Shown here in pieces: positions 1 through 20,036 of a stretch of DNA of 25,221 nucleotides. The notes under the pieces were generated by a model. That model made no database searches, had not been told where the DNA came from, and saw only the letters and a program-made list of their open reading frames with translations. Source of the stretch: a virus. The number at the start of each line of letters is the position of its first letter. The stretch's first letter is position 1. A program made the position numbers and the translations under genes. Location of the stretch: IMG/VR virus record IMGVR_UViG_3300043465_002249, positions 1 to 25,221 of that record, one strand, 5' to 3'.

Positions 1-718
1 TGCGGAGGGCGACGCGGGGGGACTGGGCGGCGGCCTGCTGGACGGCGGCGAAGCCGGGGAGGTTCAGCAAGGCCTGCAGGGCGTACAGGAAGGGGTGTTC
101 TTCCGGCGGGTAGTCCGGGAGCATGACGGGGGTGACGATGCTGTCTGCGGGGCGATGGAGGGCGTCGAGGCAATCAGTGATTCGGAGGCCGCGGAAGGTG
201 GTGGAGTATTCCGGCAGGCCTACGAGGGGACTGCCATCAATGCCATTGATGAGGGTGGGCAGCGGCACAAAGCCGCAGGCGATGAGGGCGGCGGCGGCGT
301 CGATGTTTCTGATGGAGAACCGGGCGGGCGGCGGCTCGATGAAGGAGGCGGACGTGGCTGGCTCAAGGAAGCGGCCACGCTGCTGCCAGTAGAGTGGGGC
401 GGTGCCTGTCTGCACCCACTGCTGCACGGCGGCGCGGGCGGTCAGGGCGGCCATGCAGGCGGCGAAGCGGGTGTAGTCGCTGGAGTATTCCACGCCCTGC
501 TCCCAGCCGCGGCAGATGCTCTGGGCCTCGGTAAGGCGGTCCTCGACCCACCAGGTCATTTCATCACCGAAGTCTCCCACGAGGGCGTCGGCGGAAACCT
601 TCCACCCGCAGGTGGCGAGGGCGACCGCGTAAGGGTGGGTGCCGATGGCGCGGCTGAGGCGGACGAGGGGGGTGTCTGGCGCGTTGCGGCTGGGGATGCT
701 GAGTGGGAGGCGTTGCAT
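1..718 (-). CDS. Unknown late tail-region protein, cut by the left edge
   Basis: An open minus-strand frame runs from an ATG at 718 to the window edge without a stop, giving 239 visible codons beginning MQRLPLSIPSRNAPDT. I do not recognise the family. The visible part has no signal peptide or membrane segment and looks soluble, with Trp/Tyr-containing stretches such as MTWWVEDR and LYWQQRG. It follows the tail-tube-position gene, where lambda-like phages keep tail assembly chaperones and then the tape measure; a tail role is inferred from position only. The start has no Shine-Dalgarno but lies just after a CACGCACAC run resembling leaders of other uncoupled genes here. A GC hairpin lies between it and the preceding gene. 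The left part and true length cannot be seen. Confidence 0.75.
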   Translation of the reverse strand, partial: MQRLPLSIPSRNAPDTPLVRLSRAIGTHPYAVALATCGWKVSADALVGDFGDEMTWWVEDRLTEAQSICRGWEQGVEYSSDYTRFAACMAALTARAAVQQWVQTGTAPLYWQQRGRFLEPATSASFIEPPPARFSIRNIDAAAALIACGFVPLPTLINGIDGSPLVGLPEYSTTFRGLRITDCLDALHRPADSIVTPVMLPDYPPEEHPFLYALQALLNLPGFAAVQQAAAQSPRVALR

Positions 719-740
719 GTGTGCGTGCGGGAAAATGAGT

Positions 741-780
741 GAGGGCCGGTCCGGGCCTATGATCCCCGGGACCGGCCCTC
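741..780 (-). terminator. GC-rich hairpin between late genes, attenuator or terminator
   Basis: The 12-base arms GAGGGCCGGTCC (741-752) and GGACCGGCCCTC (769-780) are perfect inverted complements around a 16-base loop. The structure begins 22 nt after the stop of the gene ending at 802 and precedes the next start at 718. On the minus strand it is followed by ACTCATTTTCC, not a clean U tract, so partial termination or 3'-end protection of the upstream message is more likely than full termination. Confidence 0.6.
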
Positions 781-801
781 AGTTGATGGTGTCAGGAGGG
801 A

Positions 802-1269
802 TCAGACGGCATCCGTGTCCTGAATGATCTGGACGTCGGTGGAGGGGTTCCAGCGGAGGGTGAGTTCGAAGGTGACCTTTTGAAGGTCTCCCGGCGTGGC
901 CGTGCGGTTAGGGTTCCCCATGATCCACACGCCCGTGGTCGGAAATCCGTGGGCGAGGTCTGCGGTGTAGCTGGCGACGACCGAAGGCGCGAGGGCTGCG
1001 CCAGGGTGGCCGTTGTTGACGATGCCGGAGACTTGGAGGTTCTCGGCATCCACATTGCACTTGATTTGAGGGTTGCTGTGGATGTCGACGATGCCCTCGT
1101 GGCCGCGGTGGTCTTTTTTCCGGATCACGTCCCGGGTGGGGGTGACGGTGAAGGTATTCAGCAGCAGCCCGGCGATGGGAGCGGCTAGGCCGAAGGCGGC
1201 GGACTGGAAGGAGGAATCACGGGTCCGCACGACAAGGGCGGCGAGGGGGTTGACGGCGGTGGCTGGCAT
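802..1269 (-). CDS. Small beta-rich late protein, tail-tube position
   Basis: This is a 155-residue protein starting MPATAVNPLAALVVRTRD. The ATG at 1269 lies 29 nt after the preceding stop; the same frame stays open further upstream, but that would overlap the previous gene. The body alternates polar and hydrophobic residues (VTFELTLRWNPSTDVQII), as expected of a beta-sheet protein, with no signal peptide or membrane segment. The first residues match the start of the neighbouring upstream gene (MPPVPINPLAAIVARSR), so the two share at least an N-terminal element. Position after U- and V-like genes suggests a tail tube or tube-associated subunit; this is inference from gene order. A strong hairpin follows the stop. 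Confidence 0.75.
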   Translation of the reverse strand: MPATAVNPLAALVVRTRDSSFQSAAFGLAAPIAGLLLNTFTVTPTRDVIRKKDHRGHEGIVDIHSNPQIKCNVDAENLQVSGIVNNGHPGAALAPSVVASYTADLAHGFPTTGVWIMGNPNRTATPGDLQKVTFELTLRWNPSTDVQIIQDTDAV

Positions 1270-1298
1270 GGCTTTGGGCTTTGCTGGGGGTGTCAATC

Positions 1299-2324
1299 TC
1301 AGGCCATGAAGAGGCCGGTGATGGAGGCGAGGGGGTTGGCTGGGCGCGTCCACGCGGGGCCGACGCCGGGGGTGGGCTCGGAGATCCAACCCGAATCGCT
1401 GCTCCAGAGGGCGGCGCGGGCATGGCTGGTGCCGGGACGTGTGGTCGGCGGGGTGGTGCCGCACCAGTAGCCGGCGGCGACGATGGTGGTGGCTCCAATG
1501 GCGGTGCTGGCATCGTACCAGTAGGGGATGAGGATCTCGGTGTCGTGATTCGAAGACGGGACCAGATCCTCGCTGGTGTAGAGCCATGCGGCGGAGGTGT
1601 GGGCATAGACGCCGGTGATGGTGATGCCGTCTGCGATGGAACCGGCAGCGGTCTCGTCTCCGGGAGGGGCGATAGGGCTGCTGCCAGCGTGGTCTGAAAT
1701 GGCATACGCAAGGGCAGGGGGAAGGCCGCTGGCCAGCAGGCTGGAGAGGCCGGGCTCGGCTCCCGACTTCACGCGGAGGAATCGGTTCATGGTGCCGCCT
1801 GCGTCTTTCCAGTACACGGAGAGGGCGTGGTAGGGGCCGGACTCGCCACCGCCGGAAATGGCGGGATAGCTGCCGGTGTCGAGGTCGATGAAGATGTGCT
1901 CGATGGTGAAGGAGCACCGCATGGCGTCTCCCGGAATGGGATCCTGCTGGGGGTCGCCGTAGATGAGCCGGCCGACGCGGGCTCCTTCGTACTCGGTCTG
2001 GAACTGGAATGGGGCGCGGCCGTTGAGGAAAGCGAGGGCCCGGTCGCTCAGGTTCCGGCCGGGGTGGTAGTTGGCGAGGTTTTCGCCGGTGGGATCCAGC
2101 GCGGTGGCGGTGACGGAGTAGATGAGCTGGGGAGAGTGGCGGACAAAAGCGATGAGGTTGCCGTCCGTGCCATATCGCCGCCATTCCTGACGGCTGGCGC
2201 GGGCGGTGCAGCTTTCCACCAGCAGGGCGTCCTCGGCGCGAAGGGTATTGATTGCGGCGGGGTCGACGGGGACGCGGCTGCGGGCGACGATGGCGGCGAG
2301 GGGATTGATGGGGACGGGTGGCAT
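1299..2324 (-). CDS. Putative major tail / tail-tube-like protein
   Basis: This is a 341-residue protein beginning MPPVPINPLAAIVARSR. The family is not recognised with certainty. It is long, soluble, beta-rich, and glycine- and threonine-rich towards the C-terminus. By position after the U-like gene it corresponds to the lambda V (tail tube) slot, where long V-like proteins can carry an extra surface domain; the second half here (about residues 190-330) may be such a domain, but that is inference. The protein ends ANPLASITGLFMA, so the NPLAA/S element seen at its N-terminus reappears at its C-terminus, just upstream of the next gene, which also starts with it. The ATG at 2324 follows the previous stop by six bases (TGATCTCCCATGCC), with no Shine-Dalgarno. 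Confidence 0.75.
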   Translation of the reverse strand: MPPVPINPLAAIVARSRVPVDPAAINTLRAEDALLVESCTARASRQEWRRYGTDGNLIAFVRHSPQLIYSVTATALDPTGENLANYHPGRNLSDRALAFLNGRAPFQFQTEYEGARVGRLIYGDPQQDPIPGDAMRCSFTIEHIFIDLDTGSYPAISGGGESGPYHALSVYWKDAGGTMNRFLRVKSGAEPGLSSLLASGLPPALAYAISDHAGSSPIAPPGDETAAGSIADGITITGVYAHTSAAWLYTSEDLVPSSNHDTEILIPYWYDASTAIGATTIVAAGYWCGTTPPTTRPGTSHARAALWSSDSGWISEPTPGVGPAWTRPANPLASITGLFMA

Positions 2325-2336
2325 GGGAGATCAGGC
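2320..2336. repeat. 17-bp gene-junction repeat, copy 1
   Basis: GGCATGGGAGATCAGGC (plus-strand reading) is identical at 2893-2909. Each copy spans the stop of one gene and the ATGCC start of the next on the minus strand, read there as stop TGA, TCTCCC, then ATG. Confidence 0.7.
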
Positions 2337-2897
2337 AGAGAGGCCGCCGCAGGTGACGCGGAAGCCGATGGAGACGAATGGGCGGCCTTCGTTGTCCTGA
2401 AGGCGGTCGATGGTGCCTTCGGCGAAGTTGTTTTCCTCGATGCTGCCAGCCACCAGCAGTGTGGAATCTGTGAGGCGTTCCGCGGCGCGGGAGATGCCGC
2501 CGCCGGGGATCTGGATGTCGTTGGTGAGGAGATTTTTGACGAAGGAGACGATGGCCTCGCCCTCGGCGGAGTCCCAGAGATCCCGTTCCCAGAGGAGGTC
2601 GACTTTTACCGCGATGTTCCAGAGACCTTCGAAGGCGTCGACTTTGCGGGTGGGCTGTTCCTCGATGATGAGGACGATGGAGGGCGCGCCGATGTCGATT
2701 TCCTGCGTGTCATCGTACCGGTAGATGCGCAGGCCCGCGGGGAAGACGGCGTGGCCGGCAGGACAGCCGGTATCGACGGCCCATGTGCTGTCCGGCTGGC
2801 TGTCTGCGATGCCGGTGATGCCGGTGCGGAGGACGCGATCCAGAGCGGCGAGGAGCCGGGTTTCCGGCGGGGTGGCGAGGAGGGAGTAGGAGGGCAT
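2331..2897 (-). CDS. Putative tail terminator / minor tail protein (U-position)
   Basis: This is a 188-residue soluble protein, MPSYSLLATPPETRLLAALDR onwards. Helical N-terminal residues (TRLLAALDRVLRTGITG) are followed by beta-rich segments (PSIVLIIEEQP, NIAVKVDLLWE) and a final strand VSIGFRVTCGG. Size, alpha/beta make-up and place directly before the tube-like gene fit the tail-terminator or minor tail protein slot (lambda U). I have no diagnostic motif, so the role is positional inference. The start at 2897 lies six bases after the preceding stop in a junction identical to the one at its own 3' end. Confidence 0.75.
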   Translation of the reverse strand: MPSYSLLATPPETRLLAALDRVLRTGITGIADSQPDSTWAVDTGCPAGHAVFPAGLRIYRYDDTQEIDIGAPSIVLIIEEQPTRKVDAFEGLWNIAVKVDLLWERDLWDSAEGEAIVSFVKNLLTNDIQIPGGGISRAAERLTDSTLLVAGSIEENNFAEGTIDRLQDNEGRPFVSIGFRVTCGGLSA

Positions 2898-2909
2898 GGG
2901 AGATCAGGC
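2893..2909. repeat. 17-bp gene-junction repeat, copy 2
   Basis: Identical to 2320-2336. It covers the stop of the gene ending at 2904 and the ATG of the gene starting at 2897, so two successive late genes share exactly the same stop/start joint. Confidence 0.7.
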
Positions 2910-3620
2910 GGCGCGGGCGGTGAAGCCGGTGGCGATGGCGGCCTCGCGGAGGTTCCGCTCAGCGTAGAGGCCGAGGAGGCGGTCGACTTCGGCGGCGCTC
3001 GAATTGAACGCCTCAGGGGCGATGCCGACGATGCCCTTGGCGCGGGAGCCGAAGGCGGAGGCGAAGTTTTCCACAAGGATGTCGGCGGTGTCTGCCTTCA
3101 GCTTCTGCTCATAGCTGCCAGGGGGCTTCCGGTACTTTGGCAGCTTCCGGCCCTCGCGGCGGACGCGGCCGACGTCGGCGGTGGCATCCATGGCGGGGCC
3201 CATCCCGGCGCGGTGGATGCGGGCGCCAGCCATCCGGCCGCGGACGAACTTGCCGACGATGCGGTAGAAGTCGGACCGGGGAGCGGTGCGGGCGTTCCGG
3301 TAATTCAGCATCCCGACGATCTTGGATGCGATGGTGCCGCGCCATTGGTCGGCGGGGCGGAAGCGCTTGGTCTTCCGGTTTTTGAGGTTGGTGCGGGCAC
3401 CGATGGAGGCGGTGGCCATGACGGTGTAGCCGGTGACGACGCGGCTGAGGGCGGCGCGGATCTTCCCCGGCTCGGCGGCGGCGATCTTGTGCAGAGCGAA
3501 GGACACCCACAGGCGCATCGCATACCTCGCGGTCTGATGGAAATGCCGGCCGCTGATCTGGCGGGAGGCCCCGAAAAGGGTGAGATTGGTGATGGCGGAC
3601 GAATCGACAATTTTCAGCAT
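2904..3620 (-). CDS. Basic tail-completion / minor tail protein (Z-position)
   Basis: This is a 238-residue, strongly basic protein starting MLKIVDSSAITNLTLFGASR. Many Arg/Lys patches (NRKTKRFRPADQWRG, VRREGRKLPKYRKPPG) run through the middle and the C-terminal third is helical. There is no signal or membrane segment. It sits where lambda places Z (tail completion) between FII and U, and similarly basic neck/tail-completion proteins are common there; the assignment is positional. I chose ATG 3620 rather than the longer open frame to 3845 because the longer form would overlap the previous gene by about 180 nt, and 3620 is preceded by a CA-rich leader (CTTTCACACAAGAAA). The upstream leader is one copy of the 37-bp repeat. 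Confidence 0.75.
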   Translation of the reverse strand: MLKIVDSSAITNLTLFGASRQISGRHFHQTARYAMRLWVSFALHKIAAAEPGKIRAALSRVVTGYTVMATASIGARTNLKNRKTKRFRPADQWRGTIASKIVGMLNYRNARTAPRSDFYRIVGKFVRGRMAGARIHRAGMGPAMDATADVGRVRREGRKLPKYRKPPGSYEQKLKADTADILVENFASAFGSRAKGIVGIAPEAFNSSAAEVDRLLGLYAERNLREAAIATGFTARAA

Positions 3621-3630
3621 TTTCTTGTGT

Positions 3631-3667
3631 GAAAGTTCGGGTGGTACGCAGGGTGGGCAGGAATCAG
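3631..3667. repeat. 37-bp direct repeat, left copy flanking the capsid cassette
   Basis: This copy matches 7308-7344 at 36 of 37 positions (one C/T difference at position 8). On the minus strand it begins with the stop of the upstream gene (3664-3666) and ends 10 bases before the ATG of the downstream gene. Core readable on the plus strand: GGTGGTACGCAGGGTGGGCA. Confidence 0.85.
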
Positions 3668-4050
3668 TGACGCTCGACTTCGATGCGCCAGTGGGTGTGA
3701 TAGGATGCCTTGTCGGCGGAGGTGATCCGGAACTTCTGCGCTGGGGCGGCGGGATCCTGAATCCAGACGCCGGAGGAATTCCGCACGGCATTGCCGAAGA
3801 GGAGGATGTCGTCAGGCCGGGGCTCAAACGGCAGGGAGGCGGCATCCACCTCGATGGTGCGGGTGTCGGCCGGGAGGCTCAGCACGCCAGCCAGTCCACG
3901 CGAGCGGCCGCGGGCGACGGAGCTGGTGCACGGCACCACGACGGTGTACGACGTGCCGCCTTTCGTGGCGGGGAGGAAGAGGTAGGTGCCCTCGCCGAAG
4001 ACTCGCTGGGTCTCGCGCCGAAGGAAGCCGAAGATGTTGCGGGGTTGCAT
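3664..4050 (-). CDS. Head-tail joining protein candidate (FII-position)
   Basis: This is a 128-residue protein starting MQPRNIFGFLRRETQRVFG. After a short basic helix the rest looks beta-rich (GTSYTVVVPCTSS, TRTIEVDAASLPF, KFRITSADKAS, HWRIEVERH). Size and place between the major capsid region and the tail-completion gene match small head-tail connectors such as lambda FII (about 117 residues). No catalytic motif, signal or membrane segment is present. The start ATG at 4050 has no visible Shine-Dalgarno; it follows a 68-nt spacer containing a strong GC hairpin. Its stop lies inside the left copy of the 37-bp repeat. Confidence 0.72.
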   Translation of the reverse strand: MQPRNIFGFLRRETQRVFGEGTYLFLPATKGGTSYTVVVPCTSSVARGRSRGLAGVLSLPADTRTIEVDAASLPFEPRPDDILLFGNAVRNSSGVWIQDPAAPAQKFRITSADKASYHTHWRIEVERH

Positions 4051-4068
4051 AGGCTAGGAACGGAAACA

Positions 4069-4095
4069 CCCCGGCCCGGACGAACCGGACCGGGG
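4069..4095 (-). terminator. GC-rich hairpin in the late operon
   Basis: The arms CCCCGGCCCGG (4069-4079) and CCGGACCGGGG (4085-4095) form an 11-bp stem with one G-U type pair and a 5-base loop. It lies in the 68-nt spacer after the gene ending at 4119. On the minus strand it is followed by TGTTTCCG, a weak U run. It shares the GGCCCGGAC core with the hairpin at 741-780. It may lower transcription past the capsid genes. Confidence 0.55.
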
Positions 4096-4118
4096 CGCAC
4101 TCGCACACACAGGGTTTC

Positions 4119-4493
4119 TCACTTTCTCCGCTTCCCGCTGATCCCAGCGGGTGCGGGACTGTCAGGATCGGGATCTTCTGAAGGGGTGTCGGTGGTGGTT
4201 TCGGCGGGCTCGATGTCGGCGGTTTCGACGGGTTCGATCACGGGCTCCGGCCCGGCTGGTTGATCGCTGGCAACTTCCGAGGATTCCTCGGCAGCTGGCT
4301 CGACCACCCAGGCCGAGGCGGATTGTTTCCCGTTCTTCCGCAGTTCCACCGGGTTCCGGATGATCCCGAAACGGACGGCAGAACTGGCGGCCATGGCTGC
4401 ATCCGCCTCCGAGCTGACCCGGCCCATGTAGACCGGGAACGGTTTGGCGGATGGGCCGGGGCCGTCGTACCCCACAACAATAAGCAGCTTCAT
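4119..4493 (-). CDS. Small protein downstream of major capsid (FI-position), acidic tail
   Basis: This is a 124-residue protein. The N-terminal part MKLLIVVGYDGPGPSAKPFPVYMG to about residue 65 is compact, with a beta-type start. Residues about 66-118 are acidic and Pro/Glu/Thr-rich low complexity (EPVIEPVETADIEPAETTTD), ending in the basic GKRRK. It follows the major capsid gene by 29 nt, the slot of lambda FI or a decoration-type protein. The early hydrophobic residues are too short for a convincing signal peptide. Function is not recognised; a capsid accessory role is inferred from position only. Confidence 0.72.
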   Translation of the reverse strand: MKLLIVVGYDGPGPSAKPFPVYMGRVSSEADAAMAASSAVRFGIIRNPVELRKNGKQSASAWVVEPAAEESSEVASDQPAGPEPVIEPVETADIEPAETTTDTPSEDPDPDSPAPAGISGKRRK

Positions 4494-4522
4494 GAGTCAG
4501 GATGGATGGGTGGAGGAGTGTC

Positions 4523-5728
4523 TCAGGCGGTGCGAATGAGGAGACCCCCGTTGTCCGTGGCGTAGCCGACTGGGTTGGTGCCACCTTGACGACCGGCAAC
4601 ATCACCCCACAGAAGGACGGGCATGAAGGTGAGATCTCCGGTGCTTGGATCTTGAAACTTCACAGCCGACATTGTGATCCCGCTGTCAGGATCGCGCACG
4701 GTGTCGAATGCGAGGATGCTGGGGATGCCGAGAGATTGCATGATGGCATCCTGAGCGCCGTGATCTTCCGGACCGGCAAGGAAGACAATGCCGGAGGTGT
4801 CGGTGGCCAAAGCGGACACGTTTTCGCCAGCGGTCAGAACCACGTTGGTGGCATCCGTCGTCACATCCACAGAGGTTCCGGCAATGGCGTTTGCAACAGT
4901 CGTGCAAAGATACCCGCTGTCCGCCCCGAGACGGTGGAAGAAGTAGTAGTTCAAGGCCGTCAGCCCTGCACCGTTGGTGATGGAGTTCAGAATCACGCGC
5001 TGCCCGGTTTGGAAACCGTGCGCGGTTTTCGCATAGATATTGGTCGAGGCGGTAATGGCCCCGCCAGTAACCGCCGTGCCGTTGCCGGTGGGCATGTCTG
5101 GATATTCCTGAATCAGGGCAAATCCATGGGTTCCGCGCCAGCTGCGGTACCCGTCTTCTCCCTGCAGCTGACCGGCAAAGTCGCGGGACGTAAGGCGGGT
5201 GTCGGCTTGGAGAGCATCGGCCACGTTGCTGTTCACGACCATGGAGCGGCCCATGCGGGCGGCTCCTTGAATGTTCAGCTGTTTGGTGGCAGCAATCAGC
5301 ATGTCGACATCCGAATCCGCCGCCGCATAGGTGATGGCGTTGCTGAAATTCCGGCTCGTGGCATTGGCCAGCAGATCATCAATGAATGCTTTTCCAACCG
5401 CATAACCTGCGCCGCGGATGACTTCATCGTAGGCGGCTTTATCGTCCGCGATGGCGTCAATGTTTTTCATGATCAACCGAGCGCCCATCCGGCTAGTGAC
5501 AGTGACAGGGACATCTGTGAGGAGGTTCCGCGCATCGTTACCGGTGACGGCATAGGTGGTGGTGACGTTTTCCGCAACCGGCACAGTGGCGATGTGACCG
5601 GTGTAGGTTTTATTCAGGCGAATCCCGGAAGATTGGAAATTTTTGCTGAAATTGAGGGCCAGAGGAATCGACTTCCGGAAAGATCCAATGACATCCGCGA
5701 GGATTTCGGTAGGAGTAAGAGTGGGCAT
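4523..5728 (-). CDS. Major capsid protein, HK97-fold type with an inserted domain
   Basis: This is a 401-residue protein, MPTLTPTEILADVIGSFRKS onwards. It has the expected size and place (after protease and scaffold-like genes) of the shell subunit. Features typical of the coat family are an N-terminal helical arm, a Val/Thr-rich stretch (TGHIATVPVAENVTTTYAV, about 44-61), a long helix around 95-120 (DDKAAYDEVIRGAGYAVGKA) and a P-domain-like segment with VVNSNVADAL near 164-173. Residues about 213-305 look like a separate beta-rich insert (TAHGFQTGQRVIL...YYFF...SGYLCTTV), after which the core resumes at GIVFLAGPEDHG. It most resembles P22-like coats in layout, but I cannot fix the subfamily. 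Start ATG 5728 follows an A-rich leader (AATTAAAACA) without a Shine-Dalgarno. Confidence 0.85.
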   Translation of the reverse strand: MPTLTPTEILADVIGSFRKSIPLALNFSKNFQSSGIRLNKTYTGHIATVPVAENVTTTYAVTGNDARNLLTDVPVTVTSRMGARLIMKNIDAIADDKAAYDEVIRGAGYAVGKAFIDDLLANATSRNFSNAITYAAADSDVDMLIAATKQLNIQGAARMGRSMVVNSNVADALQADTRLTSRDFAGQLQGEDGYRSWRGTHGFALIQEYPDMPTGNGTAVTGGAITASTNIYAKTAHGFQTGQRVILNSITNGAGLTALNYYFFHRLGADSGYLCTTVANAIAGTSVDVTTDATNVVLTAGENVSALATDTSGIVFLAGPEDHGAQDAIMQSLGIPSILAFDTVRDPDSGITMSAVKFQDPSTGDLTFMPVLLWGDVAGRQGGTNPVGYATDNGGLLIRTA

Positions 5729-5767
5729 TGTTTTAATTGGGCAGGGATGACGAGGACGGGCGGGTGA

Positions 5768-6382
5768 TCAGTTGGCGTTGCGGAGTTTGCGGGCTTGAGC
5801 GGCGAGTTCGCCGCGTTTGATGGGATCGGTGGTGGCGGCGATTTCGGCGCGGATGGCTTCCAGTTGCTCGGCTTTGCTGGAGCCGGTGGATGCAGGGGTC
5901 TGGGTGATGCGGGCGGCTGGGATGCCGAGTTTGCTGACGGTGTTGGCCACCTCGCCGGAGACGGCGGCGGCGAAGGCGGCGGCAGCGGATTGGCCAGGAG
6001 CGGCACCGCGGTCGATGGATTGGAGGTAAGCCCCGATGCGCTCAAGGTCTGCACGCTGGGCGGCGACTTCGGCGCGGAGGTTGGTGATGGTGGCATCGCG
6101 TTCTTCAACGGCGGCGCGGAGGTCGACCAGCTCCCGCTCGGCGGCGTTGATGCTGGCGGTGAGGGTATTCCGGGAACTGGCGTAGCTGCGGATCCGCTCA
6201 AGGAAGGTGGGCTCGTCTTCCTTGCGGGCGACCGGTGCGGGCGCGGCAGCGGCGGCGGGAACCGGTTGCTGCGGGACTGGGGCGGCGGCTCCGGGCGCAG
6301 CGCCGGGGTCGGACTCGGCGCGGAGGGTGTGGCTAGTCCAAAGGAAAGCCGAGAGGGCAAGGAGCAGAAAGCGGAGGCGCAT
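5768..6382 (-). CDS. Coiled-coil protein with signal peptide in the scaffold position
   Basis: This is a 204-residue protein. Residues 1-22 (MRLRFLLLALSAFLWTSHTLRA) have the n/h/c layout of a signal peptide ending in an Ala-type cleavage site. An Ala/Pro linker (about 25-52) follows, then a long coiled coil (about 58-120, ELVDLRAAVEERDATITNLR) and a basic helical C-terminus (ELAAQARKLRNAN). Between the S49 protease and the coat gene one expects a scaffold or decoration protein, and the coiled coil fits a scaffold. A secretion signal does not, since capsids assemble in the cytoplasm. Either translation starts later, or the hydrophobic start has another use, or the protein is not a scaffold. 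A 47-nt spacer separates it from the protease stop; no Shine-Dalgarno is seen. Confidence 0.75.
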   Translation of the reverse strand: MRLRFLLLALSAFLWTSHTLRAESDPGAAPGAAAPVPQQPVPAAAAAPAPVARKEDEPTFLERIRSYASSRNTLTASINAAERELVDLRAAVEERDATITNLRAEVAAQRADLERIGAYLQSIDRGAAPGQSAAAAFAAAVSGEVANTVSKLGIPAARITQTPASTGSSKAEQLEAIRAEIAATTDPIKRGELAAQARKLRNAN

Positions 6383-6429
6383 GGGACCGGTTTGTTATGG
6401 GTGGTTTGGTGTGGACGTTGCCGGGGACG

Positions 6430-7296
6430 TCAAAGGCCCAGCATGGCGGCGAGGAATTCTTCGAAGGTGGGGATGGTGGCGGTGTCGGCCATTCCCTTGG
6501 GAGCGAGGCGGGCTTCCCATGCCTGTCCCTGCATGGCGGCGGGCTTCAGTTTCCGGCGGTCGGACATCCACGTTTTGAACTCGGTGCTGTACTGCTGGAC
6601 GGTGGCAGCCATGTGTTCATCATGCGCATCGGTGATCGGGCCCATGCCGATGCCTTTGAGTGCGGAGTCGGCGGTGTAGACGCGGCGGTCGACTCCCACC
6701 TTTTGCCAGAAGCCGGTGGAGTCGGAAAGAGTGGCGACGGTGCCGATGGAGCCGATGTAGGCACCAGGCGCGGCATGGATGGCCTGAGTGGCTGCGGCCA
6801 GATACATTCCGGCAGACGCTGCAAGGCGCTGGGTGTATGTCAGCACCTGCATTTTCGGGCGTTGCGCGGGCAGGGACATCAGCGCATCGGCCGCGGCGCG
6901 GAGGCCGAGGACTGATCCGCCAGGGGTATCCATGAGGAGGACGAGGGCGGAGACGGCGGGATTTCCGGCGACGGTGGCGACGGTGCTGTGGATGCGGTCG
7001 AGGTTAAACAGCCCGTACCATTCCTCAGCAGCGGCCGAGATCCCGGACACGATGGCCCCGCGGATGGGCTGGACGGCGATGATGGTGGATCCGTGGGCGA
7101 CGTACTGCAGATCATTCGGATGGATGTCCTGCGGGCCGGAATCCCGCGGCCCGGCGCTGACGGGCATGGGGGCGATGCGGCAGCGGCCGCTGGCGTAATC
7201 CCGCAGGAGGGAGGGAACGTCGAGGGCGAGCGGGTGATTGGCGGCGGAGGCAATGCCTGCCACGGTCAGGAGGGAATGAAGGTCGAGTTTTTCCAT
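6430..7296 (-). CDS. S49-family head maturation protease (lambda gpC-like)
   Basis: This is a 288-residue serine protease of the SppA/S49 type that trims head proteins during prohead maturation. The ClpP-like core is clear: VSALVLLMDTPGGSVLG (115-131) for the oxyanion/substrate strand, nucleophile Ser161 in RLAASAGMYLA, IGSIGTV (181-187), and general base Lys214 in SALKGIGMG, the usual S49 Ser-Lys dyad. The final residues (EEFLAAMLGL) are helical. I place the start at ATG 7296 rather than the open frame to 7422, because the latter overlaps the portal gene and 7296 has a CCAACAAA leader. The spacer upstream is the right copy of the 37-bp repeat. No separate in-frame scaffold start (as for lambda Nu3) is obvious. 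Confidence 0.9.
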   Translation of the reverse strand: MEKLDLHSLLTVAGIASAANHPLALDVPSLLRDYASGRCRIAPMPVSAGPRDSGPQDIHPNDLQYVAHGSTIIAVQPIRGAIVSGISAAAEEWYGLFNLDRIHSTVATVAGNPAVSALVLLMDTPGGSVLGLRAAADALMSLPAQRPKMQVLTYTQRLAASAGMYLAAATQAIHAAPGAYIGSIGTVATLSDSTGFWQKVGVDRRVYTADSALKGIGMGPITDAHDEHMAATVQQYSTEFKTWMSDRRKLKPAAMQGQAWEARLAPKGMADTATIPTFEEFLAAMLGL

Positions 7297-7307
7297 TTTG
7301 TTGGAGC

Positions 7308-7344
7308 GAAAGTTTGGGTGGTACGCAGGGTGGGCAGGAATCAG
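7308..7344. repeat. 37-bp direct repeat, right copy flanking the capsid cassette
   Basis: Matches 3631-3667 at 36 of 37 positions. It includes the portal stop codon (7341-7343) and runs to 11 bases before the protease ATG at 7296, the same arrangement relative to a stop and start as the other copy. Confidence 0.85.
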
Positions 7345-8843
7345 GCGGCGGCGGGAGCGGCGGCGGGAGGGGTGACTGGCGCACCGAGGATCAGGGCGGG
7401 GTCGACGCCGATGGCGGCGCACTCGTCCCGGATCATCTTGATCTCAGCGACCCGCTGGCGGACTTGATCCTGCCAGTTCTCTCCCTGCTCGCCATACTCG
7501 GTGGCGAGATTGGTGAGGCCCCGGTCGAGGCGGGAGCGCTGGGCGGAGGCGTCGCGGCCGTCGTCGATGGTGGCGCTCCGCGGATAGTTGACCACATGCC
7601 GCCACCACCGGGGATCGGAGCACCGGGGAAGCTGCTTGGTGCGCATGCCCCACTCGACGCGGCGGAGGTAGTCGACGGTGAGGAAGGATACCTGGCGATC
7701 CAGCCAGACGTTCCGCCATTCCTGAGCCTGACGCAAAACGAACCGGACGCCGGGGCCGCCCACTTTGTCGAGATGGAAGAGCAGCTCGACGGGGACGCCC
7801 AATCCCATGGCAATTTGGGCATAGATATCCTCTTTGACGGCGGCTGGTGAGGGAAATTCGCGGCCGTCGGTGAGGGGTTTGATGGAGTGGCCCGCGGGGA
7901 GGTTGGCGATTTCGCCGCGGTCGATGACTTCGTTGACGGTGCGAGGGATGGCGGTGCCGGTGGTGACGCCGGCAGCGGGGCGGCCAATGTCGGCGAGGTT
8001 ATCCTCCCGCTTCCGGCCGGAGACGGGCGCGATCTCGGCCATGACGGTGCCCGGCTGGCGCTCGATGACGAGGCCGAAGAGGCCGTGGACTTTCAAGATC
8101 TTCCGCAGATCATTGTCGATCTCGCGGTAGTCAAGGATTTGAGGGATGGCGTGGATGAGTGCGGGCGTGCCACGGGTGGCGCTGTGGGTCTCGTAGTTGG
8201 CGAACAGGTGGGCGGCTCCAACGGGGATCTGGAAGTCGATGACTTCGCGGGAGGATGGGGACTCGCGCCGGATGTTATAGGCGAGGGGTCGATAGTTGGG
8301 GCCCAAACGGACGCCGTCGAACCAGTCGCCGGGGACGTCGGTGGAGGGGTTTTCGATGAGGGCGGACTCGACCGCGATGACGATGGGCGCACCGTTGTCG
8401 TCGGTGGCGTGGACGGCTAGGAGGTCACCATCCCGGAAGACGCCGAAGAGGGCGTTGATGAGAAACTCGGAAGCGGTGAGTTTGCCCGTGGCGTCGTAGG
8501 AGCCGGGGCGGCGTTCGAAGTTATCGGTCCACCACTCGGAGACGGCGGAGTTGAAGGCGTCGTCGGTGGTGTTTGGCCGCATGCTGACGGAGCCGACCCA
8601 GCGGGCGAGGTCTTTAGTGGCTTTTCTTGCGGGCGGGACATTCCAGGCCGCCCACTGGCTGCGACGGCGGGCTTCCCGGCGGGTGAGGTTGGCAAACTGC
8701 TGTTTTCCGGTGAGGTTCGGAAACCAGATGTAGCCGCGGTCGGCCGAATTGTCGGCGGCGGAGATCCCGGAATTCCACGCCTCCGGGGCGGTGGAAGGCG
8801 CGGGACTTTGCGAGGGCGGGCGAAGGGTGCGTTTGCGGCTCAT
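7341..8843 (-). CDS. Phage portal protein, lambda family
   Basis: This is a 500-residue portal subunit, the dodecameric ring at the capsid vertex through which DNA enters and leaves. It fits the lambda-type portal family: a Trp-containing N-terminal region with RRSQWAAWNVPPARKATKDLARWVG, then WWTDNFE, LTASEFLINALFGVFRDGDLLAVHA (about 125-150), DGVRLGPNYRPLAYNI and FQIPVGAAHLF (about 208-218), the last resembling the conserved IPA..ihl region of lambda-type portals. The C-terminus is Ala/Pro-rich (PVTPPAAAPAAA). Length is usual for the family. Its ATG (8843) overlaps the previous stop as ATGA. The gene lies directly downstream of terminase and the small gpW-position gene, as in lambda. Confidence 0.9.
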   Translation of the reverse strand: MSRKRTLRPPSQSPAPSTAPEAWNSGISAADNSADRGYIWFPNLTGKQQFANLTRREARRRSQWAAWNVPPARKATKDLARWVGSVSMRPNTTDDAFNSAVSEWWTDNFERRPGSYDATGKLTASEFLINALFGVFRDGDLLAVHATDDNGAPIVIAVESALIENPSTDVPGDWFDGVRLGPNYRPLAYNIRRESPSSREVIDFQIPVGAAHLFANYETHSATRGTPALIHAIPQILDYREIDNDLRKILKVHGLFGLVIERQPGTVMAEIAPVSGRKREDNLADIGRPAAGVTTGTAIPRTVNEVIDRGEIANLPAGHSIKPLTDGREFPSPAAVKEDIYAQIAMGLGVPVELLFHLDKVGGPGVRFVLRQAQEWRNVWLDRQVSFLTVDYLRRVEWGMRTKQLPRCSDPRWWRHVVNYPRSATIDDGRDASAQRSRLDRGLTNLATEYGEQGENWQDQVRQRVAEIKMIRDECAAIGVDPALILGAPVTPPAAAPAAA

Positions 8844-9127
8844 TGGATGCGACGGAGGGAAAAGTCGACGCCGAGATTAACAGGGGCGCGGGTAGCTCCG
8901 GGAGTGTTCCCGGAAGCGGAATCTGTCAGGAGGTCGAGGGCGGCATTGCAGTCTTCGATGACCTGCTCGCAGTTCTCGATGCTGATGGTCATGGACGAGC
9001 CCTCGTAGTTCCGGGTGGATGTGCCGCCTTCGAGGCGGACATCGAGGGCGAGCTTTCGCATGCCACGGATCTCCTCGGCGGTGTAGGTTTCAGAGAGGGC
9101 GCGGACGGTGGCAGGCGAGGCGGGCAT
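8840..9127 (-). CDS. Small protein between terminase and portal (gpW-position)
   Basis: This is a 95-residue protein, MPASPATVRALSETYTAEEIRGMR onwards. It has a helical N-terminus (TAEEIRGMRKLALDVRLEG), a central GSSMTISIENCEQVIEDCNAALDLL segment and a polar tail ending FSLRRIQ. In lambda-like phages this slot holds gpW, the head-completion protein (68 residues). The size is near and the position exact, but similarity is not clear to me, so the role is positional inference. ATG 9127 lies 17 nt after the terminase stop; a longer open frame to 9454 is rejected because it would lie inside terminase. It is coupled to the portal gene by an ATGA overlap. Confidence 0.75.
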   Translation of the reverse strand: MPASPATVRALSETYTAEEIRGMRKLALDVRLEGGTSTRNYEGSSMTISIENCEQVIEDCNAALDLLTDSASGNTPGATRAPVNLGVDFSLRRIQ

Positions 9128-9144
9128 GGCTGTTGCGGGGGCGG

Positions 9145-11172
9145 TCAAACTTGGGTTCGTTCGTCGCGGTCGACGGCGTCGATGACCACCAGGCCGTATT
9201 TGAGAAGGTCGGCCTTGTCGTTGGGCCGGGAGGCGTGGCGCTTCCGCCACTTCAGCTCGCGCACGCCGCCTTTGTTCGCTTTGTCGTAGTAATGCTCCAT
9301 GTTCCCAATTTCGGCGAGGACGTCGGCCGGGGTGTCGACGGGCAGGTAGACGGGGGGACGGGTGATGAGGCCGCAGGCGGGTTTGGCGATGCGCTCGATG
9401 TGCAGCTCGTGCTCCCAGTGATCGGCTTTGATGCCCATGATTCGAACCTTGCATTCATTTTGGTATTGGTCCCGTCCCGGGTATTCCTTGGTCCAGCGGG
9501 GGGAGACGCGCGCCATTCTATCGTTGGCGGCGGCGCGGCCACGGATGGCGCACCAGCGAATGTCGCCACCGTTTGTGCTGCCGCCCATGGCGGAAATAAA
9601 TCCAATGACAAGGTCTTCGCGGTAGCCGGTGTCGAGACAGGCGATAGCGACGTGCCACGGGTTGTCAGGATCGTCTTTGTCCCGGAATGGTCTGGACTCG
9701 ATGACGGAGGGGAGGTCGTCCAGTTCGGGGACGGTGCCCCAGTCGAGGGCCCACAGGGAGCCATCCCATTCGGCGACCCAGATCATCCACTCGACGGAGC
9801 CAATGACGCCGACTTCGTTGCCTTGCCCGCGCTGAATGTCGGCAGTGAGGCCGAGGAAGCGGATCTCGGCGGAGGTGAGCGGGATCTTCAGCTCGGGCTG
9901 ACCATCGTAGCGGAGGCGGCGGTAGCCTCGGCGAAGTTTGCCGACGGCTTCTTCGACGGGCTTGGTGGCTTTGAATCGTTCAAAGGCTCGACCAAGGAAC
10001 TCGGTCCAGAAGGCTTTGAGCGCTTCGCCCCCGGCCTCGGTGGCAGAAATAAAAGCGTTGGCGATGGCTCCCCAGCGGCGGGCGGCAAAGGCAAGATTGA
10101 GCAGGCTGGAAACGGATAGGCTGCGGTGAGCGACGTCGGGGGAAAGGTTGGTGGCGACGATGCGGCGGCGGGCGATCATGTCAGCCTTGGAGGATTCGTC
10201 GATGCGTTGTTTGCACCCGGCGCACTCGTAGAAGGTTTCGGTGAGGACGCGGTCGCGGTTCCAGACGGGTTTTGCCTCGGCTTCGGAGAAGGGGAGGGAT
10301 TCCTTGCAGTGATCGAATCGGAGGTTTTCCAGCACCAGTTCCTGAAAGTGGCCGCAGTGAGGGCAGGGGACTTCCACCCGTTCCTGCGTGCCACGCAGGT
10401 AGGAGGCGTGGATGACGGTTTCCCGGGTGACGATGGGCGTGCGGCGGCCGGTGACGGGGTCTTCGTCGTGTTCGAGCGCGATGTCCGGAGTGGAAAATGC
10501 TAGTTGTTTGGCGTCGTCGTCAGCGGTGATCCGGCCTTCGAGGAGTTTCAAAGAGGGCATGTCGTCGATGAGGTCGTGCTTGGCGACTTCATCGGCGACG
10601 GTGAGGGACGCGGGCTTACTGACAAATTCCGAGGAGGACTGACCGCCGCCGAGGTAAAGGGTGCCGCGGCTGTACCGGATGGCCATGGCGGTGCTGCCTT
10701 TCTCGTTTTTTTCGGCGCGGAGGGAAGGGTAGGCGTCGAGGACTGGGCTGAGGCGATCCCGCGCAAAATCCCGGGCCTGCTGCCTGCAATCGGTCACAAA
10801 GATCATGTTTCCGCCGCGATGCTTTGCCCACCAGGCTATCCCGTGCAGGGCGATGGAGGAGCAGCCTGACTGGGAATCTTTGAGGATGGAAGCGGTGCGG
10901 TTGCGGATGCGGCGGGTGCTGCCGTCGGCGAACAGGATGTCGGTGTGCGGTTCCCGGAGAAAGTCGAAAACCCAGTCGGCGAGGACGGGGAATTGGGAAA
11001 ACTCCCACGTTTTCCCAGCCGCGGCGGCCATACGATTGTGCTGTGCGGGGATCGGGAGCTTGTGACCTTCGACCCAATCGCGGATGCCGGGCTCAGGTTC
11101 CAGCACGGGATTTTCCCGGATCAGCTCGATCCATTGGCCAATCAGGGTGCGACTGAGATGACGGTCACTCAT
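9145..11172 (-). CDS. terL: Terminase large subunit, GpA family
   Basis: This is the 675-residue DNA-packaging motor and nuclease. The ATPase domain has a Walker-A-like KDSQSGCSS (98-106), aligning with the degenerate P-loop of GpA terminases, followed by NMIFVTDCRQQARDF and the Walker-B TVADEV (191-196). A zinc ribbon follows with CPHC (270-273) and CAGC (317-320). The nuclease domain shows ADIQ with Asp445 and the LDTGY motif with Asp514, the spacing of the RNase-H-like GpA nuclease. Length matches the family (about 640-690). GpA enzymes usually serve cos-type packaging, which points to a cohesive-end phage. ATG 11172 overlaps the upstream stop as ATGA, coupling it to the putative small subunit. 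Confidence 0.93.
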   Translation of the reverse strand: MSDRHLSRTLIGQWIELIRENPVLEPEPGIRDWVEGHKLPIPAQHNRMAAAAGKTWEFSQFPVLADWVFDFLREPHTDILFADGSTRRIRNRTASILKDSQSGCSSIALHGIAWWAKHRGGNMIFVTDCRQQARDFARDRLSPVLDAYPSLRAEKNEKGSTAMAIRYSRGTLYLGGGQSSSEFVSKPASLTVADEVAKHDLIDDMPSLKLLEGRITADDDAKQLAFSTPDIALEHDEDPVTGRRTPIVTRETVIHASYLRGTQERVEVPCPHCGHFQELVLENLRFDHCKESLPFSEAEAKPVWNRDRVLTETFYECAGCKQRIDESSKADMIARRRIVATNLSPDVAHRSLSVSSLLNLAFAARRWGAIANAFISATEAGGEALKAFWTEFLGRAFERFKATKPVEEAVGKLRRGYRRLRYDGQPELKIPLTSAEIRFLGLTADIQRGQGNEVGVIGSVEWMIWVAEWDGSLWALDWGTVPELDDLPSVIESRPFRDKDDPDNPWHVAIACLDTGYREDLVIGFISAMGGSTNGGDIRWCAIRGRAAANDRMARVSPRWTKEYPGRDQYQNECKVRIMGIKADHWEHELHIERIAKPACGLITRPPVYLPVDTPADVLAEIGNMEHYYDKANKGGVRELKWRKRHASRPNDKADLLKYGLVVIDAVDRDERTQV

Positions 11173-12065
11173 GCCGCGAGAAGGGATTCAAGGGTGGCCG
11201 GAGTTTTGCCGAAGGCATCTCGCACTGCCGCCGTTGCCACTTCCGGGGAAACGTGAGCGGATAGGCCCACCACCAGCGCCTGCGCCAGCGCCGGCAGAAA
11301 GCGGACGATGGCGGAATTCACATCGGCAGGGTCGAGCAACTCGCGCATTTTTTCGGCGCGGGCCCTTTGCATGATCAGCAACTCGGACGCTTCCGACCAC
11401 CGGCGCCGGTGGGCGTCCAGCTCTACATCCGATGCCTTTGCCTCTACGGCCGCTTGATATCGGCGATGCAGCCTTGCCTCGTCGTCCTGCAACCGGGCCA
11501 GCACGCTGCGGGAGCTGAGTTCCTCGGCGGTGTAGTCTGCCTCAGCCGCGCCAGCCGGGGGCGCATCGGTAGCTGGCGCGGGCGGCGGAGTCGGCGATTG
11601 GGGAGGGGCTTGGGCTTTGGCCGCCGCTTGCAGCAACACATCGGGCGGCGCGTGCTTCAGGTGCTTAGCTGCACGGGCGGCTTCGTACCACTGGAGCAGC
11701 GCTACCGGATCTCCCAACGGGGCCGGGATGCCGATTTCAGCCCCCAGCTTTCTCCATCGTTGCAGGCGGCGCTCCACTGCTTCGCTGTAGGAGTCGGCAT
11801 AGAGAAGGACGTAGGCCGCAGCCCCCCGACCGGATACCACCGGCGCAGCATCCAACCGGAATCCATCCGCCTCAGGTTCCACCGGCGTCGATGACTTCTC
11901 GATCAGCTCCAGATACCGACCCCAGTCTCCGGAGTCCGGCATAATTTTCCCGCGGCCGACCAGGCGCTTCAAGGCATCCAGTTCGGCCGCCTCGCGTGCG
12001 GTCAGAGAGGAGGCATCCATGCCTTTTGCCCGCCCCGTCAACGGTTCAGCCGCCAATTCCGACAC
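11169..12065 (-). CDS. Probable terminase small subunit
   Basis: This is a 298-residue protein directly upstream of, and ATGA-coupled to, the large terminase gene, the usual place of the DNA-recognition subunit. The visible layout is a helical N-terminal half with TAREAAELDALKRLVGRGK and AVERRLQRWRKLGAEIGIP (about 97-115), the latter like the helix plus wing of Nu1/excisionase-type DNA-binding domains. A Pro/Ala-rich linker (about 152-173) follows, then a long charged coiled coil (about 175-245) and a helical end. The family is not certain. The frame opens at GTG 12065; ATG 12020 (MDASSLTAREAAELD) is an equally plausible start. It heads the late transcript, behind a 500-bp non-coding region. 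Confidence 0.72.
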   Translation of the reverse strand: MSELAAEPLTGRAKGMDASSLTAREAAELDALKRLVGRGKIMPDSGDWGRYLELIEKSSTPVEPEADGFRLDAAPVVSGRGAAAYVLLYADSYSEAVERRLQRWRKLGAEIGIPAPLGDPVALLQWYEAARAAKHLKHAPPDVLLQAAAKAQAPPQSPTPPPAPATDAPPAGAAEADYTAEELSSRSVLARLQDDEARLHRRYQAAVEAKASDVELDAHRRRWSEASELLIMQRARAEKMRELLDPADVNSAIVRFLPALAQALVVGLSAHVSPEVATAAVRDAFGKTPATLESLLAA

Positions 12066-12308
12066 AAACTTTTCAGGTTTCAGGCGCGCCCGTTGATTGC
12101 GGGTCGGGAAACTCGCTTCGAAAAACGCACAGAAAAAAAGATTCCTTACCCTCCAACGGCGACTTTGCCCGCCCGGATTCCCGACAGCCCGCCGACACCA
12201 GCAGATGAAAGGAGATCAGAACCCGACAGATTGCGCACCTTTCGGAGGCCCTTTTGCTGAAACCCTCAAACTCCCCCATTCTGGAATATCTCAAGAGACG
12301 GTATGAAA

Positions 12309-12331
12309 GGTGTGTAAGGTACGAACACACC
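12309..12331. promoter_or_regulatory. Dyad upstream of the late operon, operator candidate
   Basis: GGTGTGT (12309-12315) and ACACACC (12325-12331) are perfect 7-base inverted arms separated by nine bases. The 23-bp dyad has operator-like geometry (arms about two turns overall) and lies in the non-coding region before the late genes. Binding protein unknown; the zinc-finger/HTH protein or the HTH protein of the early operon would be candidates for a late activator. Confidence 0.45.
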
Positions 12332-12517
12332 ATTAGAATCAACGGTTTGCGAAGGTTAAAATCACCATCGCCTGCACACCTTGGCAGACCTCAGCGCATC
12401 ATCCGCCGCCAACGGCGGCACTTCTTCCCCCTCCGAACGATCAAAACAGCGCACCTTGCACACGTCCGCGAACCTCGCACAGGGCAGGGGAACGGGGAGG
12501 TCCGCAGGCAAAACGAA

Positions 12518-12545
12518 GGGGCGCGCACCCATCGGCACGCGCCCC
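12518..12545 (-). terminator. Intrinsic terminator of the early operon
   Basis: On the minus strand GGGGCGCGTGCC pairs with GGTGCGCGCCCC over 12 bp (two G-U pairs) around a GATG tetraloop, followed by TTCGTTTTGCC. It starts 26 nt after the stop of the helicase gene, so it ends the replication operon before the late region. Confidence 0.85.
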
Positions 12546-12571
12546 CATCACTCAACCTAGCCCACGCCCTC

Positions 12572-14317
12572 CTACTGCTGCACGCAGACGTATGTCGCCT
12601 GCCTCGCGCCCTCACGGCTTCCAAACTGATAGTTCCGCCCACCACCATCCACAAACATCAGCCCATTCATCAGCCGCTTGATCGTCGCCCCGAACCGCGT
12701 CGCCATTGCCCGGTCAAGGAATGCCGCAGCCTGCTCCCGCTTCTCCTCCGGCGTTGCCTCCCGTCGGCTCACATCCCCATCCTCATCCACCACCTCAGTC
12801 GGCTTCCACCTCCCTTTGCCCGCATCGAGATCCCGGAAGACATCATCCAGCGTACCCAAGGCCTCGACGAACAGCCCGGCCTTCCTCGCCAACGGCACCA
12901 GATCCGCCAGCTTCACCTGCTGCACCCGCCGCCCCTCCACCAACCGATCCAGCGCGATCCTCGCCAACTCCCGCGCATCAGCCAGCAGAGGATTCCCCTG
13001 CGCCGCCGCAGGCTTTTCGGTCGGATCACCCAATGCGGCATGGATCACCACCTTCGGCACCACACGACACCACCCTTCAAATGATCCGATCTTCCTCGCC
13101 AACTGCGCCGGCCGCACCTGCTCCATCACCTCAGCATGCCGCACCAAGGCCCAGAGCGCCGCCAGTATCTTCGACCGGTTCGGCTCGTCTGCCAGCCACT
13201 CCTCCGTCATGTCGATGGCGTCCTCAGGTAGCACCCGCTGATCATACTGGACCGGCTGGAACAGATCAGCGATCAGCGAGCGCCGATACAAGTCATCCGA
13301 GTACGTCAGCTGATTCCCCGTCACCAAAGTCACCGCCCTCAGTGGCACCGAAAACCGATCCTTGCCCCCCATCACCCGACCCGCCCACCGACTCGCCGTG
13401 ATCCACGAGTTCAGCATCCCCGATTTCAAAAACCCCGTCTGGTCATCAAAAAAGAGATAGGGCGAGAAATCCTGCGCCGCCGAGTCCATCTCCTTTTTGA
13501 AGTCTTCGACGCGCTCCCACCAAGTCGCGACCGCCGCGCCCCCGAAGACCGGGATCAGACACATCTGCGCCAACCGCGTCTTCCCGCTCGCCACTTGGTT
13601 CGCGTTCCAGATCAGCATCGGCGGCCTCGCACCTGCTGGCATCATCCCCATCATGTAGACCGTCAGCATCGCCGCCACATGCACAGCCTTCGACCGCTCC
13701 CCGTCGAACGGGAAATACTTCAGCATCTCCAGGATGAAAAGCCGCGCCTCGTCAGGATCCATCTCCTCACTGTAATCCAGCCCCGCCTGCAAAGTGAAAA
13801 TCCCACTCTCCGCATCATAGCCCGGCTGCAGCAACTCCACCACCCCACTCCGCCTCCTCACCGGGAGCTTCACCGGGTTGATCCCATTGAGCACCGGGAT
13901 CTTGCAGCGGAAGGCATCACTGGCCAGTATCTCCTCCGCCTTCTGCCGATTCATGCTCACATATTTCTTTTCCCCGTGCGCAGGCTTCCAGAACGACACC
14001 CAGTCATCCACCCAGCTCACAAACCTCGACGCCTTCATCAGAGCAAACCGCCCAGTCCCTTCATCCACCGTCACCAGTTCCTCGCCCGCACGGTACAGCC
14101 CACTGGCCCGTAGATGCTGCGCCAGCTCATGTGCCAACAGCCCGATCCGGTCGCCCAGATAGATCTGCGGCACAGAGTTCGCCACCTCCTTCGGCACCTC
14201 CATCCCGGCCGATTCCATCCACGGCTGCAGCTTCGCGATGGCGTCACGGATTTCGGGAGGGAGCTTGTTGGAATTGTCAGGCGGCGGCGGAGGGGGAGGA
14301 TTGGATTCCAGAGACAT
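12572..14317 (-). CDS. AAA+/SF3-like replicative helicase, last gene of the early operon
   Basis: This is a 581-residue ATPase likely acting as the phage replicative helicase or loader. It opens with a polyproline run (NPPPPPPPDN). The ATPase core has a P-loop NQVASGKTRLAQ (240-251) after the hydrophobic strand PPMLIW, a Walker B YLFFDD (287-292), and a sensor-like strand ending in Asn, TLVTGNQ (330-336), then an Arg pair in DLYRRSLIADLF (342-353). That order matches D5/SF3-type phage helicases paired with AEP primases. The C-terminal part is helical with a late VRNLM-like basic region (RFGATIKRLMNG). ATG 14317 has a CGCACACAC leader; the gene overlaps the end of the primase gene by 41 nt. 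A strong terminator follows. Helicase activity is inferred from motifs and neighbour. Confidence 0.8.
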   Translation of the reverse strand: MSLESNPPPPPPPDNSNKLPPEIRDAIAKLQPWMESAGMEVPKEVANSVPQIYLGDRIGLLAHELAQHLRASGLYRAGEELVTVDEGTGRFALMKASRFVSWVDDWVSFWKPAHGEKKYVSMNRQKAEEILASDAFRCKIPVLNGINPVKLPVRRRSGVVELLQPGYDAESGIFTLQAGLDYSEEMDPDEARLFILEMLKYFPFDGERSKAVHVAAMLTVYMMGMMPAGARPPMLIWNANQVASGKTRLAQMCLIPVFGGAAVATWWERVEDFKKEMDSAAQDFSPYLFFDDQTGFLKSGMLNSWITASRWAGRVMGGKDRFSVPLRAVTLVTGNQLTYSDDLYRRSLIADLFQPVQYDQRVLPEDAIDMTEEWLADEPNRSKILAALWALVRHAEVMEQVRPAQLARKIGSFEGWCRVVPKVVIHAALGDPTEKPAAAQGNPLLADARELARIALDRLVEGRRVQQVKLADLVPLARKAGLFVEALGTLDDVFRDLDAGKGRWKPTEVVDEDGDVSRREATPEEKREQAAAFLDRAMATRFGATIKRLMNGLMFVDGGGRNYQFGSREGARQATYVCVQQ

Positions 14318-16676: not shown

Positions 16677-16924
16677 AGCACACCCCCCTTCACACGCTGA
16701 AACACCTCGCGAGCCTTCGCCAGATCCTCACCGGACACCATCACCGCCGGCACAGTCACCAGAGGCTCCAGCACCGCCAGCAATGCCGACGCCTGCTCCC
16801 GCAGCGCACGGCAATGCGCCACCAGTTCATCCTGCATCAGCCGCCCCTCAGGATCCCCCACAGCTTCGCGAATGTCCGCCAGCAGCTTCACCACCGCGTT
16901 CACCTCAGGCTCCCAGCCACTCAT
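16673..16924 (-). CDS. Small helical early protein, 83 aa
   Basis: An 83-residue, mostly helical protein starting MSGWEPEVNAVVKLLADIREAVG, with heptad-like spacing through LVAHCRALREQASALLAVLEPLV and a closing KAREVFQRVKGGVL. No motif identifies a function. It is coupled to the sliding clamp gene upstream by an ATGA overlap and to the next small gene downstream by GTGA, so it is made together with replication proteins. Confidence 0.7.
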   Translation of the reverse strand: MSGWEPEVNAVVKLLADIREAVGDPEGRLMQDELVAHCRALREQASALLAVLEPLVTVPAVMVSGEDLAKAREVFQRVKGGVL

Positions 16925-18240: not shown

Positions 18241-18294
18241 CTCGTTGTGTTGGTTTTGTGTTTTGATAGGCCCCCTCGCGGGAACCGTGGAAAA

Positions 18295-19496: not shown

Positions 19497-19498
19497 GA

Positions 19499-20031: not shown

Positions 20032-20036
20032 CGTGG

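Follow-up and report, generated by a model that had tools for sequence, protein, structure and literature searches.

In the 25,221-nucleotide (nt) stretch of viral DNA analyzed here, positions 1 to 25,221 of IMG/VR virus record IMGVR_UViG_3300043465_002249 (hereafter the window), a short direct repeat occurs twice among the late genes. We refer to this repeat element as E and to its copies as E1 (7308-7344) and E2 (3631-3667). A repeat search places the two copies in one family (D11; 48 nt at 88%), and a 37-nt pattern with one R matches both copies exactly on the minus strand, bearing out the 36/37 identity first noticed in a sequence-only reading of this DNA. The window holds no third copy of the pattern at up to three mismatches, and none of 100 dinucleotide shuffles yields two matches. 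The late genes lie on the minus strand, and each copy is therefore 5′ of a start codon. E1 precedes the protease gene and contains the portal stop codon (TGA, 7341-7343), with 11 nt (7297-7307) between its end and the next ATG; E2 precedes the gene in the Z position, contains the TGA (3664-3666) of the gene in the FII position and leaves a gap of 10 nt (3621-3630), so that the initial description of stops and spacing is confirmed at both copies. A 35,130-bp twin record, IMGVR_UViG_3300044675_007944 (G001), carries the same two copies, at 99.98-100% identity over the compared stretches, and no third copy was found in it. Because the twin has both copies, the pair is not the artefact of a single contig.

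The surrounding features, all on the minus strand, follow one another in a simple order. The portal gene (7341-8843; Pfam PF05136, 1e-22; PHROG 21) lies upstream of E1. E1 is followed by a gene for an S49 head maturation protease (6430-7296; Pfam PF01343, 1.3e-13; PHROG 53, 6.6e-26), a coiled-coil open reading frame (ORF) in the scaffold position (5768-6382), the major coat gene (4523-5728; PHROG 3437, 2.3e-7; PHROG 283, 4.1e-7), which is type I within this phage group, and a small ORF (4119-4493) that is exchanged jointly with coat in relatives. Next comes T1, a terminator-like hairpin with a T-rich tail (4066-4098, coordinates transferred from G001; a stem-loop of about -30 kcal/mol), and the FII-position gene (3664-4050; homologues 54-73% identical). 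After E2 lie the Z-position gene (2904-3620; 68-79% identity in clade 1 and about 30% in clade 2 of the relatives described below), tail15 (2331-2897), tail2 (1299-2324; 80-87% identity in clade 1) and tail2b (802-1269), a partial tail2 paralogue seen as a second tblastn segment. The tail block ends in a second terminator-like hairpin, T2 (741-780; its region folds at -34.7 kcal/mol).

Pfam or PHROGs support the portal, S49 protease and TerL assignments and, weakly, that of the coat (PHROG, 2e-7). Neither database gives a head or tail family match for the coiled-coil, small, FII-position and Z-position ORFs, so these four take their names from gene order alone. By eye, the coiled-coil protein (5768-6382) has an N-terminal hydrophobic, signal-peptide-like stretch, which is odd for an internal scaffold.

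Scanning viral contigs with the protease, TerL, Z, tail2 and portal proteins or alignments yields 14 distinct IMG/VR records. Clade 1 comprises the window's twin G001 and G002 to G006; clade 2 comprises G007 to G014, with TerL about 66% and the Z-position protein, where present, about 30% identical to those of the window. All 12 records that span both the portal/protease and the FII/Z junctions carry a near-identical direct repeat at the two places; G013 and G014 are too short and reach the first junction only. The sequence of the repeat nonetheless differs between phages. Among the ten genomes compared there are seven types, namely the window, G002, G003/G006, G005, G007, G008/G009/G010 and G011, while G004 is almost the same as G003 (99.9%) and the gene starts of G012 and G014 agree with those of G011. 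An exact 25-mer core of the window repeat occurs in no record except the twin. The literal 37-mer is absent from all the relatives, an outcome that the sequence-only reading had named as telling against its proposal; a pair that keeps its positions while changing its sequence was something it had not foreseen.

Beyond these records, two scans of cellular genomes find no relatives, and among named phages the Z protein has no match, the TerL matches listed are at about 26% identity or less and the protease matches are distant. One named phage, Akkermansia phage Moulinsart, gives a portal match (26% identity). In this phage the T1 position (ahead of the gene at 7411) holds a terminator-like hairpin, but there is no E pair. 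As far as present data go, these comparisons suggest that E is confined to the window's phage group. Because no named phage other than Moulinsart gives a portal match, the host may perhaps belong to the Verrucomicrobiota, a weak inference.

To see how far the two copies agree, we scored the 55 nt ahead of the protease start (P) against the 55 nt ahead of the Z start in ten genomes, with the window standing for G001, G004 and G012 omitted as near-copies, and G013 and G014 omitted as incomplete. P-Z scores inside a type are 19-36. Across types, with one genome per type, the mean is 7.6 and the maximum 14 (15 in the full table, for G007 against the G008-G010 group), and shuffled sequences give a mean of 6.6 and a maximum of 11. 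Only one of the 5040 possible pairings of the seven types reaches the observed sum, and it is the true pairing. Identity breaks off sharply at the element edges, after about 20-37 nt, and in four of five full-length genomes (G003, G006, G010 and G011) core strings of 9-10 nt are confined to E. Joint change of the two copies, each time ending in a new match, is more suggestive of a matched control system than of a scar from gene swapping.

Each type of E can be parsed as two tandem direct half-sites with a period of 11 nt (12 in the window and G002) directly followed by a T-rich tail. In E1 the half-sites are CCACCC at 7333-7328 and 7321-7316, period 12, with the tail at 7314-7308; in E2 they occupy 3656-3651 and 3644-3639, with the tail at 3637-3631. 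The tail, which takes the form AACTTTTTCC, AAGATTTCC, AACTTTC and similar variants, is alike in all types, and half-site 2 lies 6-26 nt from the ATG. A period of 11 or 12 is the best or tied-best internal period in seven of seven types (Fisher, 2.7e-8), and against dinucleotide shuffles this periodicity gives p values of 0.0007 to 0.036 in six of the seven. Going from G003 to G005, C>G, T>G and T>A appear in parallel in both half-sites of E2, and two of the three recur in E1. Comparing the window with G002 gives four changes shared by both half-sites, at period 12 alone among periods 6 to 16. Such parallel change is the clearest support for the proposed tandem half-site anatomy.

No consistent RNA hairpin forms in E (folding z from -1.9 to +1.3 over 21 elements), and Rfam covariance models give no match in window positions 2000-9500 at E-values up to 1. 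A search of the phage sequences for small RNAs complementary to E (runs of at least 11 nt) yields nothing beyond two exceptions, a single 11-mer for the window E2 and a 12-nt stretch (two overlapping 11-mers) for the G006 E2, neither of which recurs in other genomes.

T1 lies just upstream of the FII-position gene in nine of ten genomes, its 75-nt region folding at -31.6 to -37.5 kcal/mol; in G009, T1 is present but an inserted ORF parts it from FII. T2 follows tail2b in all ten records that reach that point (-32.1 to -39.4 kcal/mol), a count that takes in G004 and, its region not having been obtained, leaves aside G008. In the window the FII ATG is 15 nt past the T1 hairpin. There would therefore be no room for a promoter between them, and FII would need readthrough of T1 or a start further upstream. 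With E1 ahead of T1 and E2 ahead of T2, the leader-before-terminator arrangement of nut sites is present as far as sequence alone can tell. A second junction element (TTTGACnnCCCCGG... or TTGAC...CGCAAAGG) occurs on the minus strand of the window at about 6434-6416, 9148-9128 and 1298-1279. Most relatives have it at the terL/W, protease/coil and tail2/tail2b junctions, G006 has additional copies ahead of other tail genes, and the element is more alike between phages than E.

Two copies per genome in a fixed place and the same orientation, their co-divergence, their tandem half-sites and the E-to-terminator layout, all visible in the sequences, point to a regulatory role. The alternative offered in the sequence-only reading, a shared regulatory or RNA-processing element preceding two genes, is thus supported by position, orientation, co-divergence and layout. 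We consider it probable that E is a cis-regulatory element specific to the phage, present as E1 and E2 in the transcribed leaders of two late blocks. Each block would start at E and end at a strong terminator-like hairpin, the first running E1-protease-coil-coat-small-T1 and the second E2-Z-tail15-tail2-tail2b-T2. A sequence-specific factor, most likely encoded by the phage, would read the tandem half-sites, which lie about one helical turn (11-12 nt) apart, and the short T-rich tail, alike in all types, might be read by something common to all hosts. The binding of such a factor, its phage origin and its action are what we infer from this arrangement. As to the action, the likeliest step, put forward tentatively, would be control of transcription elongation past T1 and T2, on the lambda N-nut pattern; we prefer it because the start of FII, so close after T1, would need readthrough. 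Control of translation or RNA processing at the two block leaders is our second choice and a rather doubtful one, and a DNA roadblock at E, by analogy with stoperators, is improbable.

Several observations weigh against this regulatory interpretation. First, the seven types are not fully independent, as G007 resembles G010 and G003 and G005 have a common tail. Second, the half-site parse and its period were chosen post hoc, with the data already viewed. The internal repeat of G003 taken alone is not significant (p 0.26), and parallel-change counts are weak or mixed for clade 2 pairs, where period 8 beats 11 in two of six comparisons (G007/G010 Z and G007/G011 Z) and another period ties with 11 in G010/G011 P. 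Third, a processive elongation factor has no obvious need for a second site. Finally, searches of selected early ORFs with Pfam, PHROGs and NCBIfam identify no reader factor or N-like protein. These ORFs include a weak AsnC-type helix-turn-helix (HTH) match at 18295-19134 (minus strand) and XRE-type HTH matches. The AsnC-type gene is near-identical in G003 and G006, which have a common E, and differs elsewhere; this is compatible with a role as reader, but the same pattern also mirrors general kinship. Its AlphaFold model is poor (pLDDT 62) and was not used. The G003 XRE protein is unlikely to be the reader: its best match in G006 is only 37% identical, despite the common E.

Copies alike inside a genome and different between genomes are also the classical signature of concerted evolution, in which intragenomic recombination or gene conversion would keep E1 and E2 alike with no binding factor involved. 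We regard this as an unlikely explanation of the whole. An identity tract of about 20-37 nt is short for homologous conversion, and the half-sites within one copy change jointly, which is not expected from conversion between distant copies. Moreover, both positions are kept over deep divergence (Z at about 30%), which would require selection on position.

The succession of E and hairpin resembles two transcription units, and E could accordingly be pictured as a pair of late promoters at which a phage-specific activator or sigma-like factor yields extra coat and tail transcripts ending at T1 and T2. OmpR/PhoB-type activators have sites that resemble 11-nt tandem half-sites. In five clade 2 genomes, however, only 6-7 nt separate the end of half-site 2 from the Z start codon. 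The first codons of Z are conserved as protein with some synonymous differences, translation most likely starts at that ATG, and a transcription start at the normal distance would fall inside the Z gene. A scan of window positions 1-12600 with the -35/-10 consensus finds no sigma-70-like site. Late promoters are an improbable reading of E, and given the start-codon geometry of clade 2 and the missing sigma-70-like site, the simplest view is that E would form part of the transcribed leader.

E might instead serve lysogeny, an immunity repressor binding it in the prophage and blocking elongation there. Cluster A mycobacteriophages provide the precedent, with asymmetric, single-orientation, phage-varying sites in gaps by start codons, as set out in PMC6550527. 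With only two sites per genome, and none similar near the early genes in five full-length genomes, we consider stoperators of this kind very unlikely.

The weakest explanation is the one with which the sequence-only reading began, that the repeats are linkers, offering homology by which phages could exchange or delete the head module. The copies do flank the capsid genes, and coat exchange is real in this phage group, where two unrelated coat types occur; E2 also sits at the head/tail joint, with clade-to-clade protein identity about 56% on one side (FII) and only about 30% on the other (Z). The versions of coat and small run against TerL kinship, with type I in G001, G002 and G008-G011 and type II in G003-G007. 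Between G007 and G010, DNA similarity extends without a break from portal across E1 and protease as far as the coiled-coil gene's end, is gone over coat and small, and is back just before T1. Judged from such comparisons (G007/G010 and G001/G003), coat exchange has its limits at the coil gene and near T1, not at E, and protease, coil and FII, though inside the bracket, track the vertical lineage. The linker proposal fails, and we give it hardly any credence: the repeat sequence is not common to different types (cross-type scores are near background), so exchange partners would find no homology there, the breakpoints lie elsewhere, and recombination between one genome's two copies would lose the coat. 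The boundary sequences of the modular-exchange model summarised in PMC3233612 resemble E in being short sequences at the gene joints around a module; they are common to different phages, whereas E is not, and the observed swaps bypass E. Whether relatives share the sequence or only its position is what separates a recombination linker from a regulatory site.

A few further features of these genomes deserve mention. Genes in the tail-tip/fibre position (G001 17405-20388) are 71-89% identical to those of the distant clade 2 genomes G009-G011 and only 38-57% identical to those of the nearer G003 and G006, a pattern that suggests a swap of host-recognition genes. Extra ORFs occur behind T1 in G009, in the T1-FII gap, and after terL in G008 and G009; the start of the post-terL insert presumably resembles a DNA methyltransferase. 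The window encodes a homologue of DNA polymerase III beta, the sliding clamp, at 16921-18240 (minus strand; Pfam, 6e-13). On the coding strand, late genes are C-rich and early genes G-rich, and the GC skew changes sign near 11000-12000 although the main genes of both regions share a direction.

Taken at its fullest, the regulatory interpretation would describe a new kind of late-gene control, in which a phage-encoded factor with exactly two cognate sites, each of tandem half-sites 11-12 nt apart, governs transcription or translation of terminator-ended capsid and tail blocks, its specificity renewed by lineage while the positions of its sites stay fixed. We rate this complete version as possible, short of an even chance. 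If true, these phages would naturally supply about six or seven factor/site pairs that may be orthogonal, and an element whose sequence is renewed while its place is kept would open site/factor co-evolution to testing outside immunity regions. Siphovirus structural genes are usually regarded as a single late operon. Capsid and tail blocks that each begin at a lineage-specific leader element and end at a strong terminator-like hairpin are unlike that one-operon view. We found no description of such a repeat pair in the literature searched, a weak negative, as few subscription papers were covered.

Among known systems, lambda-type nut sites come close. They are few per genome, lie in leaders ahead of terminators, combine a phage-specific part with a more conserved one and are read by a phage factor. 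E shares with them the low copy number, the leader position ahead of a terminator and the pairing of a variable with a steadier part; by analogy, the variable part would serve the phage's own factor and the steadier part a host factor. Unlike nut, E has tandem direct half-sites instead of a boxB-like hairpin, lies in late structural genes and comes with no identified N-like factor. By the tests made, which yield no consistent hairpin, E is not a nut site. Phages with stoperators have an operator at the early promoter. According to PMC6550527, the stoperators of cluster A mycobacteriophages are asymmetric, have one orientation and differ by phage, and according to PMC9283540 phages of this kind bear numerous sites. 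E is like the stoperators of cluster A in being asymmetric, single in orientation and co-diverging with the phage, and unlike stoperators in having two copies rather than many and none in the early region. The start-associated sequences of cluster K mycobacteriophages (SAS/ESAS; PMC3203893) consist of one short sequence that many genes share, and ESAS contain 17-bp inverted repeats. E is likewise a repeat just upstream of the starts of particular gene families and kept across phages, yet it serves two genes only, has direct half-sites and changes its sequence between phages. While fitting the definition of none of these as tested, E would, on the preferred interpretation, resemble nut sites, stoperators or start-associated sequences in its working.

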